Positions 4,337 through 25,516 of a DNA stretch of 25,950 bases are shown in pieces. A program made the translations under genes and the position numbers. The notes under the pieces are model-generated. The model was not told the origin of the DNA. It searched no databases and was given only the letters and a program-made list of their open reading frames with translations. Within the stretch, counting starts at the first letter, position 1, and every line of letters begins with the position of its first letter. The DNA comes from a virus. The stretch is from positions 1 to 25,950 of the IMG/VR virus record IMGVR_UViG_3300010153_000095. The stretch is one strand, 5' to 3'.

Positions 4337-4753
4337 ATGAGTAGTGAATTTGAATTATTTAAAGGAACGTCCTTTTCTGACTTGATGCGTGATGTATATC
4401 ATAATTCTAAAAAGAAATCACGGCAAATCGATTCACTAATACAAGAACTTCGTCCAATGATTAAAAACGTTGGTGATGCAACAGTTATGGTCCCTCTTAT
4501 AAAAGATTACCTAGAAGTATCAGTTAAAAACGATGATGCGTTAGTTAAACTAGCAGCGATCGTACAGAGGTTAGTATCGGCGTCTAATAAAGATGATGAT
4601 GGTAATGAATTTGGTATGACTGACGATGAACGTCGTAGATTATTAGAAGAGGCAGAAGAAGAGATTAAATCAATTCAAGAAACTAATAGACCTGAAAAAC
4701 AACAATCAAAAGAAATAAAGGATTTGAATGGCACAGGGGATGTTTGTAGCTGA
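4337..4753 (+). CDS. Small acidic conserved T4-like protein of unknown function
   Basis: The 138-residue product begins MSSEFELFKGTSFSDL. Its middle (about 40-85) is a helical domain that reads IKDYLEVSVKNDDALVKL, followed by a long charged helix rich in Glu and Arg (about 97-120) and a flexible Gln/Lys tail. From memory, the FELFKGTSFSDL start and the LIKDYLEVSVKND stretch recur in hypothetical proteins next to baseplate genes in environmental T4-like phages; I cannot give it a T4 gene name. It heads the gp5-like block behind the late-type motif and overlaps the gp5-like gene by 26 bases, so the two are probably translationally coupled. A role as an assembly or chaperone-like factor for the spike complex would fit its size and position but is not shown. 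Confidence 0.7.
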   Translation: MSSEFELFKGTSFSDLMRDVYHNSKKKSRQIDSLIQELRPMIKNVGDATVMVPLIKDYLEVSVKNDDALVKLAAIVQRLVSASNKDDDGNEFGMTDDERRRLLEEAEEEIKSIQETNRPEKQQSKEIKDLNGTGDVCS

Positions 4754-8408: not shown

Positions 8409-8861
8409 ATGGATACAAAAAAATTTACAGCGGTTCTTCGTAAGATTATTCGTGAAGAAGTTACAAAAGCAGTTCGTACAGAATTGCGTCAAATGTTGAA
8501 TGAAGATAAAACAAATCATGATTCAACTATTCAACATGGAATGCAGTTACATGATATGGTAGAACAACGACCAATTAAAAAAACTGTGAAGAAAAAATAT
8601 TCAAGTGATGGTATGTTAAATGATATTTTAAATGAAACTGGTCCACTGAAAGAAAATTCAGATTGGTCAACTATGAATTTTAAAAGTGAAATGGCACAAT
8701 CATTTGGTGGAAATACTGGCACACCAATTGTAGCACCTGTTACTGATTTACAAGGTAAGCCAATTAATACTAATAATGAAAAAGTGGCTACAGTTGTTAA
8801 TGCAATGACAAAAGATTATTCCGCATTAATGAAAGCAATTGATAAGAAACAAGGTAAATAG
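8409..8861 (+). CDS. Small helical protein ahead of gp25, function unknown
   Basis: The 150-residue product opens with an amphipathic basic helix (TAVLRKIIREEVTKAVRTEL, about 8-27), a type of start I recall in small proteins of environmental T4-like phages. The middle is polar and low in complexity, with a basic patch (KKTVKKKYSS). The end (VATVVNAMTKDYSALMKAID) is again helical. It is the first gene after the late-type motif, and its stop overlaps the GTG start of the gp25 gene by one base, so it is probably co-translated with the wedge genes. It may be a minor baseplate component or assembly factor. No family name can be supported. Confidence 0.65.
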   Translation: MDTKKFTAVLRKIIREEVTKAVRTELRQMLNEDKTNHDSTIQHGMQLHDMVEQRPIKKTVKKKYSSDGMLNDILNETGPLKENSDWSTMNFKSEMAQSFGGNTGTPIVAPVTDLQGKPINTNNEKVATVVNAMTKDYSALMKAIDKKQGK

Positions 8862-9397
8862 TGGCACAAGGAAGACCTATATATCGATATGAACCAAACA
8901 ATTCAAACCCGGATAGGGCAGTAGGTATTTTATTACCTTTTAATAAACCGGTTGAAGGACGTACAGCTACACAAAATGCGTTATCTGGTTCTACAAGCGG
9001 AGGACAATTATTTAGGCAATCATATACTACAGAAGATCAGGCATTATCTAATTTTAAAAATTTGTTAATGACAAGATACGGTGAGCGTTATATGCAACCA
9101 AAATTTGGTACTAAGATTCATGATATGGTGTTTGAACCTAATACTGAGTTAATACGTGAAGAATTACAAGCTTCAATAGAAGATGCTATAAAATTTTGGT
9201 TACCGTATATTGAATTGAGACAGATAGATGTTATTCCAGATGTTGCAAATTATGCAATATCAGTGCGTATAAGATTTACTATAATGAATTCTGAAGCTGA
9301 GCGTGTTATAATAATATTGGCTAATGAAAATGAATTATTAGTATCAGATGTCGATGTTCCATTAGATTTAGTACAAGTCGGAGAATTTAATTTTTAA
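8861..9397 (+). CDS. 25: gp25-like baseplate wedge protein
   Basis: The 178-residue product matches the gp25/GPW fold. The section from about 60 to 160 holds the conserved progression: NLLMTRYGERYMQPKFGT, then IREELQASIEDAIKFWLPYI, then a beta-hairpin end with SVRIRFTIMNS. The stretch YMQPKFGTKIHDMVFEP is the family hallmark. T4 gp25 (132 residues) is a wedge component that contacts the inner ring and starts sheath assembly; here an extra N-terminal arm of about 45 residues is present. The start is a GTG (8861-8863) overlapping the previous stop as TAGTG, with AAGG about 8 bases upstream; the next in-frame Met lies inside the domain. It is followed after 9 bases by the gp6-like gene, the neighbouring wedge protein. 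Confidence 0.92.
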   Translation: MAQGRPIYRYEPNNSNPDRAVGILLPFNKPVEGRTATQNALSGSTSGGQLFRQSYTTEDQALSNFKNLLMTRYGERYMQPKFGTKIHDMVFEPNTELIREELQASIEDAIKFWLPYIELRQIDVIPDVANYAISVRIRFTIMNSEAERVIIILANENELLVSDVDVPLDLVQVGEFNF

Positions 9398-9406
9398 GGG
9401 AAGACA

Positions 9407-11278
9407 ATGACGTTAGTTAAAAAAGATGTTAAATATTTAAATAAAGATTTTGCGCAATTTAGGCAGAATTTAATAAATTTTACGAGACAATATTTTCCTA
9501 ATACATATAATGATTTTAATGAAACATCACCTGGTATGTTATTTATTGAAATGGCATCGTATGTAGGAGATGTTTTATCATATTATACTGATCAATCGTT
9601 TCGTGAATCTATACTTAATAATGCACAAGAAAGTGCTAATATATTAAATTTAGCTCAATTATTTGGTTATCAAGCTAAATTAAATACACCTGCTACTGTT
9701 ATAATGGATGTATTTCAATTAGTTCCTTCGAAGGGAACGGGCGGTGCAACAGAACCAGATTTTGATTATGCATTATCAATAGCAGAAAATATACAAGTAC
9801 AGACAGAAGCTGGTATTAATTTTGTTACTACACAACCGGTTGATTTTGGTGTTAATATCGCAACCGATCCTCGCGAAGTATCTGTTTATTCAACTGATTC
9901 ATCAGGTAATATCGAGTTTTATCTTTTAAAGAAACAAGTGCCTGCTAAATCAGGTGAAATTAAAACGAAAAATTTTGAATTTACTACTCCTAAAGCTTAT
10001 GATAAAATAACTTTAGAAGAAACAAATGTATTAGATGTTATTGATATTATAAGTAATACTGGTGATATATGGTCACAGGTAAATTATTTAGCACAAGATA
10101 CTGTATTTGATTCTATAGCTAATATACCGTTTAACGATGTTGATATGGCAGAGTTTAGAAGTACAGTACCGTATATCTTAAAATTAAAAAGAACACCTAG
10201 AAGATTCGTTACTCGACTTAGAGATGATTCTAGATTAGATATACAATTCGGAGCAGGAGTTAGTTCAGATTCTGATGAAGAATTAATTCCAAATCCTAAA
10301 AACGTCGGGATGGGATTAGAATATTTAAAACGAACGACTACGACAGATATAGACCCGACTAATTTCTTAAGGACTAGTACATATGGATTAGCACCTAATA
10401 GTGAAACGTTAACAGTACGGTATACAATAGGTGGAAGTTTAGAAGAAAATGTATCAGGTAATTCATTAAATATTATTACTGATGTGCAATATAATAGTAC
10501 AAATACTGCCGATGTAAATTTAGATTTTGTAAAATCTACAGTAGCAGCTAATAACCCAGAACCAGCTGCTGGTGGAAAAACTAAACAAGATTTAGAGAGT
10601 GTACGACAAAATGCCATGGCTAATTTTGCGGCACAGAATAGGATGATAACCCGGGAAGATTATATAGCTAGATGTTATATGTTGCCGGCGAAATTTGGAA
10701 GTATTGCTAAAGCATATGTAATTGGAGATTCTCAACAAAATACTGAAGATAAAACATATCCCCGGGAAACGTTATCAAATCCACTAGCATTGAATTTATA
10801 TACATTGGCATATAATGATGAAAAACAATTGGTTCCGTTAAATACTGCATTAAAAGAAAATTTAAGAACTTATTTATCACAGTTTAGAATGTTGACAGAT
10901 GCTATTAATATTAAAACTGCATATATTGTAAACATAGGAGTTGAGGTTGATATTATTCCTACTCCTAATAGTAATAGCCAAGAGGTGATTTTAAGAGTTG
11001 TAAAACGGTTGAAAGAATTATTTAATGTAGAACGTATGCAAATTAATGGTCCTATAAATATACCTAATGTCATGTCTGAATTAGATAAAGTTAGGGGAGT
11101 ACAAACTGTTGCTGGATTAGACATAACTAATTTATATAATACAGTAACAGGTTATTCTCAATATGTTTATGATATAAAAGGGGCTACAAAAAATGGAATA
11201 ATATATCCAAGTTTAGATCCTATGATTTTTGAGATTCGATATCCTAATAAAGATATTAAAGGCAGAATTGTAAGTTAA
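9407..11278 (+). CDS. 6: gp6-like baseplate wedge protein
   Basis: The 623-residue product begins with the typical gp6 N-terminus: a short leader, LNKDFAQFRQNLINFTRQYF, then SPGMLFIEMASYVGDVLSYY (about 43-62) and the FRESILNNAQESANILNLAQ helix. The C-terminal half contains the baseplate J-like domain (around 400-560), including NRMITREDYIARCYMLPAKF. T4 gp6 is about 660 residues and forms dimers that tie the wedges into the iris-like ring around the hub. The ribosome site AAGGGAAG at 9396-9403 precedes the ATG by 3 bases, after a 9-base gap from gp25. It is followed 11 bases later by the DNRLRE-like gene. Family and function are clear. Confidence 0.92.
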   Translation: MTLVKKDVKYLNKDFAQFRQNLINFTRQYFPNTYNDFNETSPGMLFIEMASYVGDVLSYYTDQSFRESILNNAQESANILNLAQLFGYQAKLNTPATVIMDVFQLVPSKGTGGATEPDFDYALSIAENIQVQTEAGINFVTTQPVDFGVNIATDPREVSVYSTDSSGNIEFYLLKKQVPAKSGEIKTKNFEFTTPKAYDKITLEETNVLDVIDIISNTGDIWSQVNYLAQDTVFDSIANIPFNDVDMAEFRSTVPYILKLKRTPRRFVTRLRDDSRLDIQFGAGVSSDSDEELIPNPKNVGMGLEYLKRTTTTDIDPTNFLRTSTYGLAPNSETLTVRYTIGGSLEENVSGNSLNIITDVQYNSTNTADVNLDFVKSTVAANNPEPAAGGKTKQDLESVRQNAMANFAAQNRMITREDYIARCYMLPAKFGSIAKAYVIGDSQQNTEDKTYPRETLSNPLALNLYTLAYNDEKQLVPLNTALKENLRTYLSQFRMLTDAINIKTAYIVNIGVEVDIIPTPNSNSQEVILRVVKRLKELFNVERMQINGPINIPNVMSELDKVRGVQTVAGLDITNLYNTVTGYSQYVYDIKGATKNGIIYPSLDPMIFEIRYPNKDIKGRIVS

Positions 11279-20259: not shown

Positions 20260-20925
20260 ATGGGATATTTAGATAATAGTACGATTACGGTAGATGCAAT
20301 TCTAACTAAAAAAGGAAGAGAATTGTTAGCACGTGGTCAAAATGAATTTCAAATTACACAATTTGCGCTAGCGGATGATGAAGTTGATTATGATTTATAT
20401 AATCCAGAACATCCTCTAGGAACAGCGTTTTATGGCGCTGCTATTGAAAACATGCCTGTCACAGAAGCGTTGACAGATGAATCGCAAATGATGAAATATA
20501 AACTGGTTACGTTACCGAAAGGAACAGCTCGTATACCGGTAATAGCAATTGGACAAACAGAGATAGAATTAAGAGATGGTCAGCAGTTTATTATTAGGCC
20601 TGCTACTACTAATTTTGCTCAAGGTAATACATCGTTTGGATATACCGCGATATTATCTGATTCTGATGCAGCTGAAATAGTTGCTACTAAATCTGCTCCT
20701 AACCAATCAGGTGCATCCGTGCCTCAGTTTATTGGTGATAATGAAGCAGCTCAAACAGTAACTGTAACAGGTGCGGAATTCCAACTTACTGCAAAAGGAC
20801 AATTAACAAATACTCGTACGGCTACTGTATTATTTATTGGTAATGAAACTGGTGGTAGAGCAACTTTAACGTTGACCGTTAGACCTACTCAGATTCAAGC
20901 AATTAGAGAAGTAAGCGCAAGGTAA
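20260..20925 (+). CDS. Conserved virion structural protein of environmental phages
   Basis: The 221-residue product begins MGYLDNSTITVDAILTKKGR, a start that I recall in hypothetical structural proteins of marine T4-like and other large phages. It continues with FQITQFALADDEVDYDLYNP and a PLGTAFYGAAIENMPVTEAL stretch (about 30-70). The C-terminal part (from about 150) is a small beta-sandwich rich in Thr and Val (AQTVTVTGAEFQLTAKGQLT), perhaps an Ig-like domain. It lies between the largest tail gene and the fibre-like genes, and its ribosome site GCGGAG is strong. It may be a small baseplate or fibre-attachment protein. I am sure it is a real gene and probably a virion protein; its exact place in the virion is not known. 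Confidence 0.75.
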   Translation: MGYLDNSTITVDAILTKKGRELLARGQNEFQITQFALADDEVDYDLYNPEHPLGTAFYGAAIENMPVTEALTDESQMMKYKLVTLPKGTARIPVIAIGQTEIELRDGQQFIIRPATTNFAQGNTSFGYTAILSDSDAAEIVATKSAPNQSGASVPQFIGDNEAAQTVTVTGAEFQLTAKGQLTNTRTATVLFIGNETGGRATLTLTVRPTQIQAIREVSAR

Positions 20926-20937
20926 AAGGGAATATAA

Positions 20938-22173
20938 ATGGGACTCGCAAATAGACAAATTATACCAGGAAGATTAAGAGCTAGAAATGCTGCTGCCGCT
21001 GGAGCAGTAGAAGCTGCGGCAAGGCAATTAGCTGATCGTATTATACAAGAACGAATGTCTGCAAGGCAACGATCTAGAAATGGACGTACATATACTAATT
21101 TTGATCCAACTGATGATGTATTAGCAAATAATGTTGAAACAGTAACATCTGGTTTATTTTCCGGGAATACTGGTAGTTTACAAAGTTTCTATATTGATTC
21201 ATCCGCGACATCAATACAAAATACATATTTCAGAACTATCTACCAAAAAAAATCAGACAATCCTTTAGCCGTATCTCAATTATCTGTTGCATTTGGTAAT
21301 TATAATGGATCTGGATCAAAGGATTTAACAGGTAATTTAAATAATGATACTCCTACAAGAGCAATTTATAAACAATATGCTCAAATATTATTAGCACCTA
21401 ACGATAAGAAATTTACAATTGATGGGGTTGATACTAATAATATTTATATATTAAATTTTAATAGAGCTCGTTTTAAAGAAAAAATTGATCCGGGGAATCT
21501 TGAAATTAATTTATCTGTAATGTCTGGGTCTCATCAAAATGCTTCTAGTACTGGTTCAGCTGTTGTTAGAGATCCAGGAAATCAAGTAATTTCGTTAATT
21601 GATGACTCTTCTTTAAGTCCGGCATCTGTCGGGGAATCAGGACGAGTATATAATATAGTATCCGGAACAATTGATGATGGTACAGTTTTCCATCCTAGTT
21701 CAGATGCTTTACAAACTTATGGTTTATTATATCCAGAAGCCGGTATTGCTATTTTAGATGGCAATAAATTAAATTTATCATGTTCATTCGATACTGTATC
21801 AGGCTCCGGAGTACAAGGTGATAATGCAATGAAATTATTTAAATCACTATCTGGATCAGCATGTGGTGAGGTTGTTGCAAGTGCTGGTAGGAATTATGGG
21901 TTACAAGCTAGATCCTCTGAACAAGAAAAATCTACATACTATTTTGTACGTGTTAAAAATGGTGATTATAATTATTCGAATAATCCTTCTTTTGTAACTG
22001 GATCTCAAGGTGATTTATCATTTACTACTTTTATCAATAATCCTCAAACCTTTATTACTACAATTGGATTATATAATGATAGACGTGAATTATTAGCAGT
22101 TGCTAAATTAAGTAAACCTATATTAAAGTCGTTTACTAGAGAAGTATTAGTTAAAGTAAAATTAGACTTTTAA
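20938..22173 (+). CDS. Probable tail fibre or fibre-attachment protein with shared C-terminal module
   Basis: The 411-residue product starts with a basic Ala-rich helix (RNAAAAGAVEAAARQLADRI, about 16-35). The rest is beta-rich with many Gly, Ser, Asn and Thr. A middle section reads LQTYGLLYPEAGIAILDGNK (near 260-279). The last 40 residues, from FITTIGLYND to VKVKLDF, match the end of the 608-residue protein encoded just downstream, and the likeness extends back to VRVKNGDYNYSNNP. This suggests a common attachment or trimer-forming domain. AAAGGGAA at 20924-20931 precedes the ATG by 6 bases. The gene is 12 bases after the 221-residue gene and 15 before the next, so all three are expressed together from the motif at 20232. 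Fibre assignment is inferred. Confidence 0.7.
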   Translation: MGLANRQIIPGRLRARNAAAAGAVEAAARQLADRIIQERMSARQRSRNGRTYTNFDPTDDVLANNVETVTSGLFSGNTGSLQSFYIDSSATSIQNTYFRTIYQKKSDNPLAVSQLSVAFGNYNGSGSKDLTGNLNNDTPTRAIYKQYAQILLAPNDKKFTIDGVDTNNIYILNFNRARFKEKIDPGNLEINLSVMSGSHQNASSTGSAVVRDPGNQVISLIDDSSLSPASVGESGRVYNIVSGTIDDGTVFHPSSDALQTYGLLYPEAGIAILDGNKLNLSCSFDTVSGSGVQGDNAMKLFKSLSGSACGEVVASAGRNYGLQARSSEQEKSTYYFVRVKNGDYNYSNNPSFVTGSQGDLSFTTFINNPQTFITTIGLYNDRRELLAVAKLSKPILKSFTREVLVKVKLDF

Positions 22174-22188
22174 GAAAAATAAAATGAT

Positions 22189-24015
22189 ATGCCAACGATA
22201 CCATCAGTATTTCGCAATATTCGCAAGAATGATGTACATCAAAGACCGTTCAAGGCATATAAAAACTACACTGTAGATAATAATGAATTTGCTGGTCGTA
22301 GGTATGAATTACAAAAAGCAGTACATAGAAAAGTAACTCCTCATGTAGGAGATGCAACTTATAATTATCCTATTAATAATACTGATGATACTAATCAACA
22401 TGTAGTATGGAATTGGATTGATCATCGATATTATCGATATCCATATGATCAAGCAAGATGTCATGAATTAACCGATGTTATGAAAACTGAAAAGTTTTTA
22501 CATTGGAATGCAACTGTTGTTACTATTCCGTATTATGAAATGGGAGAGCGTGTAAAACCAGGGTCATTGATTTTACAAACATACGTAACTGGTTCGAGTA
22601 CTAATAAATTTAATAAATCATTTAATATTACAGGATCAGATGATGGCAAGGGAAATTTACGAGATTTAACTATTCCGACTGCTCATATACCATCAGCTAG
22701 TAATAATTTATTCTATCTTTCATTTAATAATGAATTCCGAAAATTTAATGATAATTATGGACTATCGGGCGTAACTGGATCTGTTAATTATAAATTACGT
22801 AAAGTAAATAGAACAGGTTATTTATCAAGTGTTGAAATTAAACCTGGTATTGAAATGCAAATTTCTGAAAGTGTACATGCATCATCTGGATTAGCAGGAT
22901 ATTTTACTGGTTCAAAAAATAGTTTTATAAAAATACAACATGATGATTTATTTGATGGACTACAACGATGTGATCATTGGACATTATCATTTTGGATTAA
23001 TCCTAATGATCTGGTTAGTACCGGTTCTATTATTTCAAAATATTCAAGTGTTACAGAACCATATTTTGACAATCGTGATAAAATGCAAAAAATACGTACT
23101 GTAAATAGACCGCATCGTACACCAGGAAATGATTTTTCTAATATCCGTACTCCTTTACAGATTTCTTTAATAGGAGATAAGGTACATTACCAAGCATCAG
23201 ATGGTTCGACTGAAATGCATATTTCGGCTACCGCATCATATACTCATGCATCAAGTAGTTGGTCAAATGTCGTTATACGTAACTCTGGATCTTCGTGCCA
23301 ATTTTTTATAAATGGTGAAGGAAGTGGTACATCCGGTTCTATACCACGAGGAAGTACGGCAAATTATGCAAATATGATAATAGGTCGAGATACATTAAAT
23401 TTATCGACTGGAAATCAATTTAATGGTAATATATCAGAAATAAGATTATTTGATTATGCATTAAATTCTAAAGAAATATCCACTTTGGCTAATAACGATT
23501 TTTATACAGGGTCGTTATATCAAACGAATGTAATGGGTAATACTTTTTATAAAAATGGACAAGTAGTAGTAACATCACCGATGCCGAAATATCAAGATAT
23601 GTGTTTTACAGGTTCTTCTGCTGCTGATTCAGCATATGCACCGGATGAAGCACCTAGTGGAATGCCTGGCTCGTTTTTTCTGAAATATAAAGGTCAGTAT
23701 ACAATTTATGAAAATGAAGCTATGGTTCGAATTCCAATGAATTCATTTAATGTGACTACAAATCCTACATCTACATACAGGCCAGCAACTGGCATTAATA
23801 ATTCATGTAATGATATCGGATCAGGAGCAGAAACGTTTAATGGTCCTGGAGAATATCGTAAAACAATGTTTATAACAGGATCGGCTAATCCGTATATCAC
23901 AACGGTTGGTTTATATAATGATAAAGGTCAAATGTTAGCGGTTGGTAAATTAGCTGAGCCATTAGAGAAAAGAAATGATATTGATATGAATATTATCATT
24001 CGTTGGGATTACTAG
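22189..24015 (+). CDS. Probable receptor-binding tail protein with LamG/concanavalin-like domain
   Basis: The 608-residue product has an N-terminal part with an Asp/Tyr/Arg-rich segment (VWNWIDHRYYRYPYDQARCH, about 69-89). At about 233-435 lies a LamG-type beta-sandwich: GLAGYFTGSKNSFIKIQHDD, then HWTLSFWINPND, CQFFINGEGSGTSG and the closing FNGNISEIRLFDYALNSKEI. The final 100 residues hold the same module as the 411-residue protein, ending YITTVGLYND and IIIRWDY. LamG_3-type domains bind sugars or proteins in many secreted proteins and are common in phage adhesins. It starts 15 bases after the 411-residue gene with a poor ribosome site and is the last gene of the block. A host-recognition role is inferred from the lectin fold and the position. 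Confidence 0.75.
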   Translation: MPTIPSVFRNIRKNDVHQRPFKAYKNYTVDNNEFAGRRYELQKAVHRKVTPHVGDATYNYPINNTDDTNQHVVWNWIDHRYYRYPYDQARCHELTDVMKTEKFLHWNATVVTIPYYEMGERVKPGSLILQTYVTGSSTNKFNKSFNITGSDDGKGNLRDLTIPTAHIPSASNNLFYLSFNNEFRKFNDNYGLSGVTGSVNYKLRKVNRTGYLSSVEIKPGIEMQISESVHASSGLAGYFTGSKNSFIKIQHDDLFDGLQRCDHWTLSFWINPNDLVSTGSIISKYSSVTEPYFDNRDKMQKIRTVNRPHRTPGNDFSNIRTPLQISLIGDKVHYQASDGSTEMHISATASYTHASSSWSNVVIRNSGSSCQFFINGEGSGTSGSIPRGSTANYANMIIGRDTLNLSTGNQFNGNISEIRLFDYALNSKEISTLANNDFYTGSLYQTNVMGNTFYKNGQVVVTSPMPKYQDMCFTGSSAADSAYAPDEAPSGMPGSFFLKYKGQYTIYENEAMVRIPMNSFNVTTNPTSTYRPATGINNSCNDIGSGAETFNGPGEYRKTMFITGSANPYITTVGLYNDKGQMLAVGKLAEPLEKRNDIDMNIIIRWDY

Positions 24016-24038: not shown

Positions 24039-24446
24039 ATGGCATGGAGATCAAAATCTAAAGTACGTGCAAACGCAATTAAACATGGTTATAGATCCGG
24101 ATTTGAACATAAAGTATCAGAACAATTAACAGAATCTAAAATTAAATTTGGTTATGAAGATACTGTAATCGATTATATTAAGCCAGAAACTCATCATAAA
24201 TATACAGTTGATTTTACATTACCTAACGGGATATTAATTGAAACAAAAGGCCGGTGGGTTATTGAAGACCGGAAAAAACATCTATTAATAAAAAAACAAC
24301 ATCCGGAATTAGATATTCGAATAATATTTCAATCAGCTAAAACTAAAATCAGAAAAGGCTCAAAAACGACATATGGTGATTATTGTGATAAGCATGGTAT
24401 TGTATGGTCAGAAAAAAAGATTCCAGAAAGTTGGTTAAAAGGTTGA
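24039..24446 (+). CDS. T7 endonuclease I-like Holliday-junction resolvase
   Basis: The 135-residue product follows phage T7 gp3 closely from YRSGFEHKVSEQL to the end, including KKHLLIKKQHPELDIRIIFQ, with only short differences. The catalytic set of T7 endonuclease I (E20, D55, E65, K67) is present as E23, D58, E68 and K70 with unchanged spacing (YTVDFTLPNGILIETKG). T7 endonuclease I is a dimeric enzyme that cleaves branched DNA, resolves recombination junctions before packaging and helps degrade host DNA. T4 uses the unrelated endonuclease VII (gp49) for this task. The length is close to that of T7 gp3 (149). It has its own late-type motif and ribosome site, which suits a packaging-stage enzyme. 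Confidence 0.95.
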   Translation: MAWRSKSKVRANAIKHGYRSGFEHKVSEQLTESKIKFGYEDTVIDYIKPETHHKYTVDFTLPNGILIETKGRWVIEDRKKHLLIKKQHPELDIRIIFQSAKTKIRKGSKTTYGDYCDKHGIVWSEKKIPESWLKG

Positions 24447-24586: not shown

Positions 24587-25516
24587 ATGAGCAACTTTCC
24601 TATCGTTACATTACTGGAATCGGTACTAGGAAAAGGACGGATTAAGGCAAATAATAACGTAGCTTTCCATTGTCCTTTTTGTCATCACCATAAACCAAAA
24701 CTAGAAGTAAATACTCAATCACAACATTGGCATTGCTGGGTTTGTAATGCAGCAGGTCGTAAATTACCTATCTTATTTAAACGTTTAAATGTCCAGAGAA
24801 CTAAAATATCTAAATTAATTGTATTATTAGAAGATGTAGAATATAAACCTAAAACAACTACGACTGATACGCCGGTCTTACATTTACCTGAAGGGTTTAA
24901 ACCATTATGGCAATTTGATAAAGCATCACCGGAGTATAGAAATGCTGTTTTTTATTTACGTACACGAGGTATTCATATACAAGATATTTTAAAATATAGA
25001 ATTGGTTATTGTGATGCCGGTCCATATAATGGTAAAATAGTTATTCCTAGTTTTGATGCTAACGGTAGTTTAAATTATTTTGTATCTAGAGCATATTATG
25101 AAGATGATAATTGGAAACATAAGAATCCAAATGTATCGAAAGATATTATCGGATTTGAATTACATATTAATTGGGACATGCCGATTATTTTAGTAGAAGG
25201 TGCATTTGATGCTATTGCTATAAAAAGAAATGCAATACCATTATTCGGTAAAACTATTTCAGATACATTAAAGAAACGGATTGTAGAACGTGGTGTAGAA
25301 ACAATTTATATTTGTTTAGATGATGATGCTAAAAAACAAGCCGTCGAAGTTTCAGATTATTTTATGTCAAATGGCATACATGTACATTTAGTAAAATTAC
25401 CAGAACAATCTGATCCATCTGAATTAGGTTTTGAAAAAGTAAAAAATATTATTGATAATACCTGTGAATTAACAGGAATAGGATTAATGCAAGAAAAAAT
25501 ATTATGCAAAATATAG
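24587..25516 (+). CDS. 61: DnaG/T4 gp61-type DNA primase
   Basis: The 309-residue product has an N-terminal zinc-binding domain with CPFC (C29, C32) and CWVC (C50, C53), and a Toprim domain with the family's acidic residues: EGAFD (E204, D208), LDDDA (D245-D247) and DPSEL (D276). This is the order of DnaG-type primases without the helicase part. T4 gp61 (342 residues) makes pentaribonucleotide primers for lagging-strand synthesis with helicase gp41; the shorter length here fits. No ribosome site is obvious at ATG 24587, and the 5' leader from the promoter at 24443 would be about 110 bases. It overlaps the gp47-like gene by 13 bases, a coupled replication/recombination pair. The assignment as primase is firm; T4 orthology is probable. 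Confidence 0.88.
   Translation: MSNFPIVTLLESVLGKGRIKANNNVAFHCPFCHHHKPKLEVNTQSQHWHCWVCNAAGRKLPILFKRLNVQRTKISKLIVLLEDVEYKPKTTTTDTPVLHLPEGFKPLWQFDKASPEYRNAVFYLRTRGIHIQDILKYRIGYCDAGPYNGKIVIPSFDANGSLNYFVSRAYYEDDNWKHKNPNVSKDIIGFELHINWDMPIILVEGAFDAIAIKRNAIPLFGKTISDTLKKRIVERGVETIYICLDDDAKKQAVEVSDYFMSNGIHVHLVKLPEQSDPSELGFEKVKNIIDNTCELTGIGLMQEKILCKI

Follow-up and report, generated by a model that had tools for sequence, protein, structure and literature searches.

Paralogous scaffold proteins of a putative Far-T4 phage with a proposed nested, exchangeable host-recognition cassette

Two neighboring open reading frames (ORFs) in the virus record IMGVR_UViG_3300010153_000095 (positions 1 to 25,950; this whole stretch of 25,950 nucleotides is called the window here) encode proteins of 411 and 608 residues that end alike. 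A first-pass annotation, made from the sequence alone, had proposed a conserved C-terminal anchor with a variable N-terminal body, in a "swap-ready" adhesin system. Both ORFs are present as described, on the plus strand: P411, a type-0 protein, at 20938-22173 and P608, a type-1 protein with an inserted LamG domain, at 22189-24015. Is the shared end a portable tail, or one part of a larger common structure? We think it rather likely that P411 and P608 are paralogous outer-baseplate (tail-tip) proteins of a T4-superfamily phage, probably a Far-T4 phage, in which a scaffold holds a nested, exchangeable host-recognition cassette. At the level of sequence, the comparisons below document the duplication, the LamG insertion, the conserved flanks, the repeated split at one linker, and the content of the cassettes.

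By BLASTP, the sole significant match between P411 and P608 lies at their C termini (22 of 57 residues identical; E = 1e-8, single comparison), and profile-profile comparison of the two tails gave an E value of 3e-25. The last 39 residues, from ITT to the end, are in register (ITTIGLYNDRRELLAVAKLSKPILK... versus ITTVGLYNDKGQMLAVGKLAEPLEK...). The VR(V/I) and NP stretch that precedes them aligns across relatives and belongs to the same module, which is not 40 but ~80 to 115 amino acids (aa) long. This C-module opens with a long strand bearing VRV...N(Y/F)(S/T)xNP and continues through a variable loop to P-(Y/F)-ITT-(I/V)-GLYND...LLAV(A/G)KL...P..K...D. It covers residues 335-411 of P411 (21940-22170, plus strand, with the invariant core ITT...LDF at 22054-22170) and residues 495-608 of P608 (23671-24012, plus strand). 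A tail profile rebuilt from 56 sequences matched 499 ORFs in 263 sources, with one domain per ORF. The match reached the last residue in 384 of 472 complete ORFs and ended within 14 residues of the terminus in all but one. The module noted at first is real and conserved, and it sits on proteins of widely differing length, from 71 to 2057 aa.

Our search for a third copy of the module in the window, which is the whole of the available record, found none, and each of the 10 records longer than 129 kb had exactly two. The Microcystis phage Mel-JY01 has five in a row; in phages resembling it (L001 10880-19826; L017, L106, and L109, where L numbers denote source loci), four type-0 copies and one type-1 copy are consecutive. 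Sequence searches of the PDB with the module gave no convincing match. We rejected the possibility of a bacterial or secretion-system domain: a contig scan with one degenerate pattern, a weak test, found the module on 3 metagenome-assembled-genome contigs among 84,980 species, and these are probably phage DNA binned with bacteria.

We then asked whether the bodies that precede the module are related. All but 2 of the 274 distinct complete bodies from the first 180 sources were placed by BLAST in one of two families, which have 152 and 120 members, and type 0 was followed by type 1 in 131 of the 180 sources with a match. We rejected a promiscuous tag on unrelated bodies, since there are just two families. 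Motifs of P411 (NRARFKEKIDPGNLEI, LIDD, and YGLLYPEAGIAIL) correspond by eye to motifs of P608 (YYEMGERVKPGSL, SDD, and GNTFYKNGQVVV). A first, shallower pair of tail-less profiles compared with hhalign aligned best on these same motifs, but with a probability of 16.6. With the module removed, profiles of 63 type-0 bodies and 40 insert-free N-halves matched with a score of 42 (probability, 81; P = 1e-5), against no more than 17.3 for all controls (a reversed profile, two other families from the same loci, and 20 column shuffles). By profile comparison, the scaffold core of P411, which follows an N-terminal helix, matches the N-half of P608 over residues 167-273. Outside LamG, the strands and helices in the models of the two proteins come in the same order by eye, and a Foldseek search of viral models with the P411 model returned P608-type proteins at E values of 3e-8 and weaker, to which the shared tail contributes. 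When long type-1 proteins were scanned with a type-0 profile, the matches extended broadly but noisily past the module, and we did not use them as proof.

Because the bodies match profile to profile without the module, we take P411 and P608 to be old duplicates of a whole scaffold. The first-pass annotation was right that the bodies differ by plain sequence comparison; at the profile level the difference does not hold, and the picture of a conserved C terminus on otherwise unrelated bodies fails, since there are two families only and they are mutually remote full-scaffold homologues. That annotation had also reasoned that profile hits confined to full-length homologues would indicate duplication instead of a modular tail. 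For the P411/P608 pair this is mostly what we found, given the remote full-scaffold homology of the two families. Some P411-like proteins of Mel-JY01-like phages carry long variable N-terminal extensions, and these precede the entire ~330-aa scaffold, not the tail alone. In some of the type-0 copies the extensions reach ~850 residues, with no Pfam match in the two tested.

The LamG domain of P608 was correctly recognized at the outset. Pfam PF13385 matched P608 at residues 262-431 (E = 1.5e-14; 54.8 bits against a cutoff of 27.6), within a predicted LamG/ConA-like jelly-roll lectin domain at about residues 168-443 (22690-23517, plus strand; insert site 1). The model has a jelly-roll fold, with a Z score of ~20 over ~200 residues. 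A profile of insert-free N-halves matched P608 on both sides of this domain, at residues 8-167 and 446-462. The first match corresponds to the scaffold N-half (residues 1-165; 22189-22683, plus strand), with the motifs GERVKPGS and DDGKGNLRD; the second is a strand pair, GNTFYKNGQVVVTSP, that closes the N-half (23524-23574, plus strand). DDGxGNL and GNVFY were both located in 39 proteins, at a spacing of 9 residues in 15 of them and of 260 to 340 in 22. All 13 P608-like proteins of A1 had a LamG match. Minimal relatives of ~270 to 300 aa have no insert. Over all pairs of 110 P608-like proteins, median identity was 27% for LamG, 33% for the N-half, and 49% for the C-module, and the C-module was more conserved than LamG in 5,993 of 5,995 pairs. 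We conclude that the LamG insert is the dispensable and fastest-changing part of P608; as an insertion within the scaffold, it marks a swap point inside the gene. Two giant type-1 proteins, L226 1492-6291 (1599 aa) and L239 121-6294 (2057 aa), have LamG near the N terminus, then more than 1,000 residues that match no Pfam family, and finally the C-module.

A second insert site was evident from relatives in which the gene is divided. Of 268 sources, 29 have an N-half ORF that lacks the module and, after it, a stand-alone C-module ORF of 92 to 167 aa. These counts come from greedy longest-ORF calls on loci that are not independent, as certain contigs occur in the set more than once, up to three times (e.g., L196 and L266); the 29 include L082, whose halves overlap by 49 bases and may reflect a frameshift, and L134, L184, L202, and L220, where the order differs or is cut. 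A further 23 sources, outside the 29, have only a stand-alone C-module, with a flank that ends before any N-half. The number of genes between the halves is zero in, e.g., L024-L029, L187, and L189; one in L190, L214, L229, L234, and L237; two in L218; three in L186, L194, L220, and L267; four in L193; and six to eight in L263-L266. The junction comes after GNIxYxQGxIVITN, which in P608 is a low-confidence linker (residues 471-491; 23599-23661, plus strand) before the long strand of the C-module. The cleanest comparison is between fused L212 (269 aa) and split L190, where one 320-aa ORF lies between the genes for a 176-aa N-half and a 99-aa C-module: the N-half (residues 1-174) is 65% identical and the C-module (residues 174-269) is 81% identical. 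In the P608 scaffold, then, the insert varies, being LamG here, nothing in minimal forms, and whole gene cassettes in split forms. The system does look "swap-ready."

Such splits could have no functional meaning: the pair might reflect plain duplication and ordinary divergence, and the splits mere breakage by mobile genes. Mobile elements often disrupt genes in phages, and the two paralogues per genome in all 10 records longer than 129 kb fit a simple duplication. We mapped the split and fused states on a quick-search tree of the type-0 gene (121 rows after removal of near-copies: 74 fused long, 25 fused short, and 22 split). The tree requires at least 9 changes of unassigned direction, a number that could be too high if type 0 and type 1 have recombined; 8 are forced by well-supported branches, and shuffled labels gave 20.4. 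For example, fused L185 lies among split L187, L183, and L024, fused L206 beside split L186, and fused L212 beside split L190. The same junction recurs. Moreover, in L263, L264, L265, and L266 both halves are still open and conserved although more than 10 kb apart, and the cassette genes that Pfam recognizes are mostly sugar-modifying enzymes, not transposases. We therefore regard breakage without function as very unlikely.

The cassettes encode, by Pfam, PF11397 GlcNAc transferase, GT6, GT34, GT2, and GDP-mannose dehydratase, as well as FkbM methyltransferase, carbamoyltransferase, and HtrL_YibB; 15 of the 29 cassette proteins scanned had no Pfam match at an E value of 0.01. Weak matches to the SprB repeat, which occurs in surface adhesins of Bacteroidota, were seen below the Pfam cutoff in one cassette protein and two N-half proteins (L221 2933-5971, L229 2948-4987, and L267 6760-7713). 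The first gene inside the split belongs to phrog_4417, of unknown function, in two related loci (L186 3099-4055 and L190 5014-5976).

The position of the free C-module suggests another role for it, that of an assembly chaperone or trimerization factor (like Tfa/gp38, or an intramolecular chaperone) that is mostly fused, free in some phages, and helps to fold the adhesin before it. Where the gene is split, the C-module is a small protein encoded directly 3' of cassette genes or adhesin-like genes, its start codon overlapping or adjoining the preceding gene in several loci, and the module ends the protein in nearly every case. Yet two conserved scaffold families with neighboring genes both terminate in it, and the P411-like family has it despite lacking a lectin. 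After a split, moreover, the N-half flank is kept with the scaffold, as though the C-module served to complete a fold. P608 has no match to a Peptidase_S74 or tail-fiber-assembly (Tfa/gp38) family in Pfam, Peptidase_S74 was absent from a Pfam scan of P411 and P608 at an E value of 0.1, and a stand-alone 102-aa protein matched no PHROG. On balance, a chaperone seems unlikely to us.

A promoter-like motif, ATATTTAT(A/T), lies 30 bases upstream of starts at window positions 4337, 8409, 15266, 20260, and 24039. Across the loci, 23 of 51 stand-alone C-module ORFs have this motif upstream, as against none of 241 ORFs of type 0; a separate C-module is thus often provided with a signal of its own. Of 44 distinct stand-alone C-module proteins, only 3 are preceded within 20 bases by a Shine-Dalgarno-like motif; scarcity of this motif is typical of translation in Bacteroidota.

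Where in the virion might the scaffold sit? The window contains T4-type baseplate wedge genes, gp25-like (8861-9397; phrog_261, E = 5.5e-22) and gp6-like (9407-11278; phrog_219, E = 2.5e-17), and on this gene content we assign the source phage to the T4-superfamily contractile-tail phages. It probably falls in the Far-T4 group: the T4-type capsid protein gp23 occurs in 9 of 10 long relatives, and the Rhodothermus phage RM378, the reference Far-T4 phage, encodes a P411-type protein with the module. The P411 and P608 genes come after the two baseplate genes in one run, an order kept in relatives. That order argues against placement in some other outer structure, such as neck whiskers, a head decoration, or a sheath ornament bearing a lectin. 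We consider such a location quite unlikely, even with LamG on many phage surface proteins (many viral LamG proteins were among the matches listed).

The conserved gene order also includes a 221-aa protein directly upstream of type 0 (20260-20925, plus strand), which stays at ~210 to 225 aa among relatives and matched no PHROG or Pfam family. Downstream, endonuclease-like and primase-like ORFs always close the region; in the window they lie at 24039-24446 and 24587-25516, as judged from their translations and the order in Mel-JY01, whose counterparts are GIY-YIG and DNA primase-like.

Some points weigh against a baseplate scaffold with a recognition cassette. The match between the bodies is of moderate strength, and among its controls the endonuclease set is a single sequence. 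The structure models are middling, with a mean predicted local distance difference test score of 66.9 for P411 and 70.5 for P608. Among 991 PDB chains, the P411 body came closest to the C-terminal fold of T4 gp6 (3h2t), but the match is weak, with a Z score of 4.5 across 96 residues. Finally, phage glycosyltransferases may act on host surface sugars or DNA, not on the virion.

Given the gene order, the scaffold, comprising the N-half and C-module, would attach to the baseplate wedge, and given the LamG fold, the insert would face outward and bind a host surface glycan. Conservation of both halves in split forms suggests that they could reassemble in trans. Between the two conserved flanks, lectins, adhesins, or glycan-modifying genes could then be exchanged while the virion component stays intact. 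A stronger proposal, which we are inclined to doubt, is that the structural gene serves as an open docking site, repeatedly split at one linker, with halves that re-form one baseplate part around a nested island of recognition and glycan-modifying genes. Were this so, recombination in the conserved flanks would swap the whole recognition kit.

On our best reading, this adhesin scaffold family was previously undescribed. Annotated isolate relatives label it "hypothetical protein," and outside the LamG part no PHROG matched at an E value of 0.01 (23 P411-like members and the isolate proteins were scanned). P411 had no convincing match in the PDB by sequence, where we took caspase rows at E values of 0.1 to 1 as chance, and its model had no Foldseek match in the PDB at an E value of 0.001. 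We recognized no paper describing the family in a literature search whose coverage excludes preprints and subscription papers. The family is a candidate receptor-binding device of Far-T4 phages and suggests how little-known phages change the part that contacts the host. Type 0 and the C-module could serve as a marker pair bracketing a host-range island in new genomes, and the split forms offer a natural split protein whose reassembly is directly testable.

Several known systems resemble this one in part. Peptidase_S74 intramolecular chaperone tails are C-terminal modules common to fibers with different bodies; the module here differs in having no Pfam match, only two body families, and, in places, its own gene. 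The T4 baseplate paralogues gp10, gp11, and gp12 are neighboring proteins that arose by duplication, and P411 and P608 are likewise adjacent duplicates, but with no convincing sequence match to a solved structure and a weak fold match to gp6. Classical modular fibers combine a conserved N terminus with a variable C-terminal receptor domain. They share with our scaffold a conserved attachment part and a variable receptor part, whereas in the scaffold the variable part is flanked at either end by conserved parts, of which the C-terminal one can be a separate gene. RM378 shares the P411-type protein with the module and differs in showing just one module copy. Far-T4 phages are common in aquatic viromes, and the study that describes them reports detecting none of the T4 core genes for interaction with the host (PMC4360716). 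No cyanophage or pelagiphage records were among the matches listed when a phage collection was searched by tblastn with P608 and the C-module. Pelagimyophages and cyanomyophages have a host recognition cluster, described as a hypervariable island between VrlC and gp14 (PMC7029224). Like the split loci, it is an island in a T4-type structural region that holds tail fibers and glycosyltransferases; there, however, the island is described between two different genes (PMC7029224), whereas here the cassette lies between the halves of one gene, or the insert domain lies within it.
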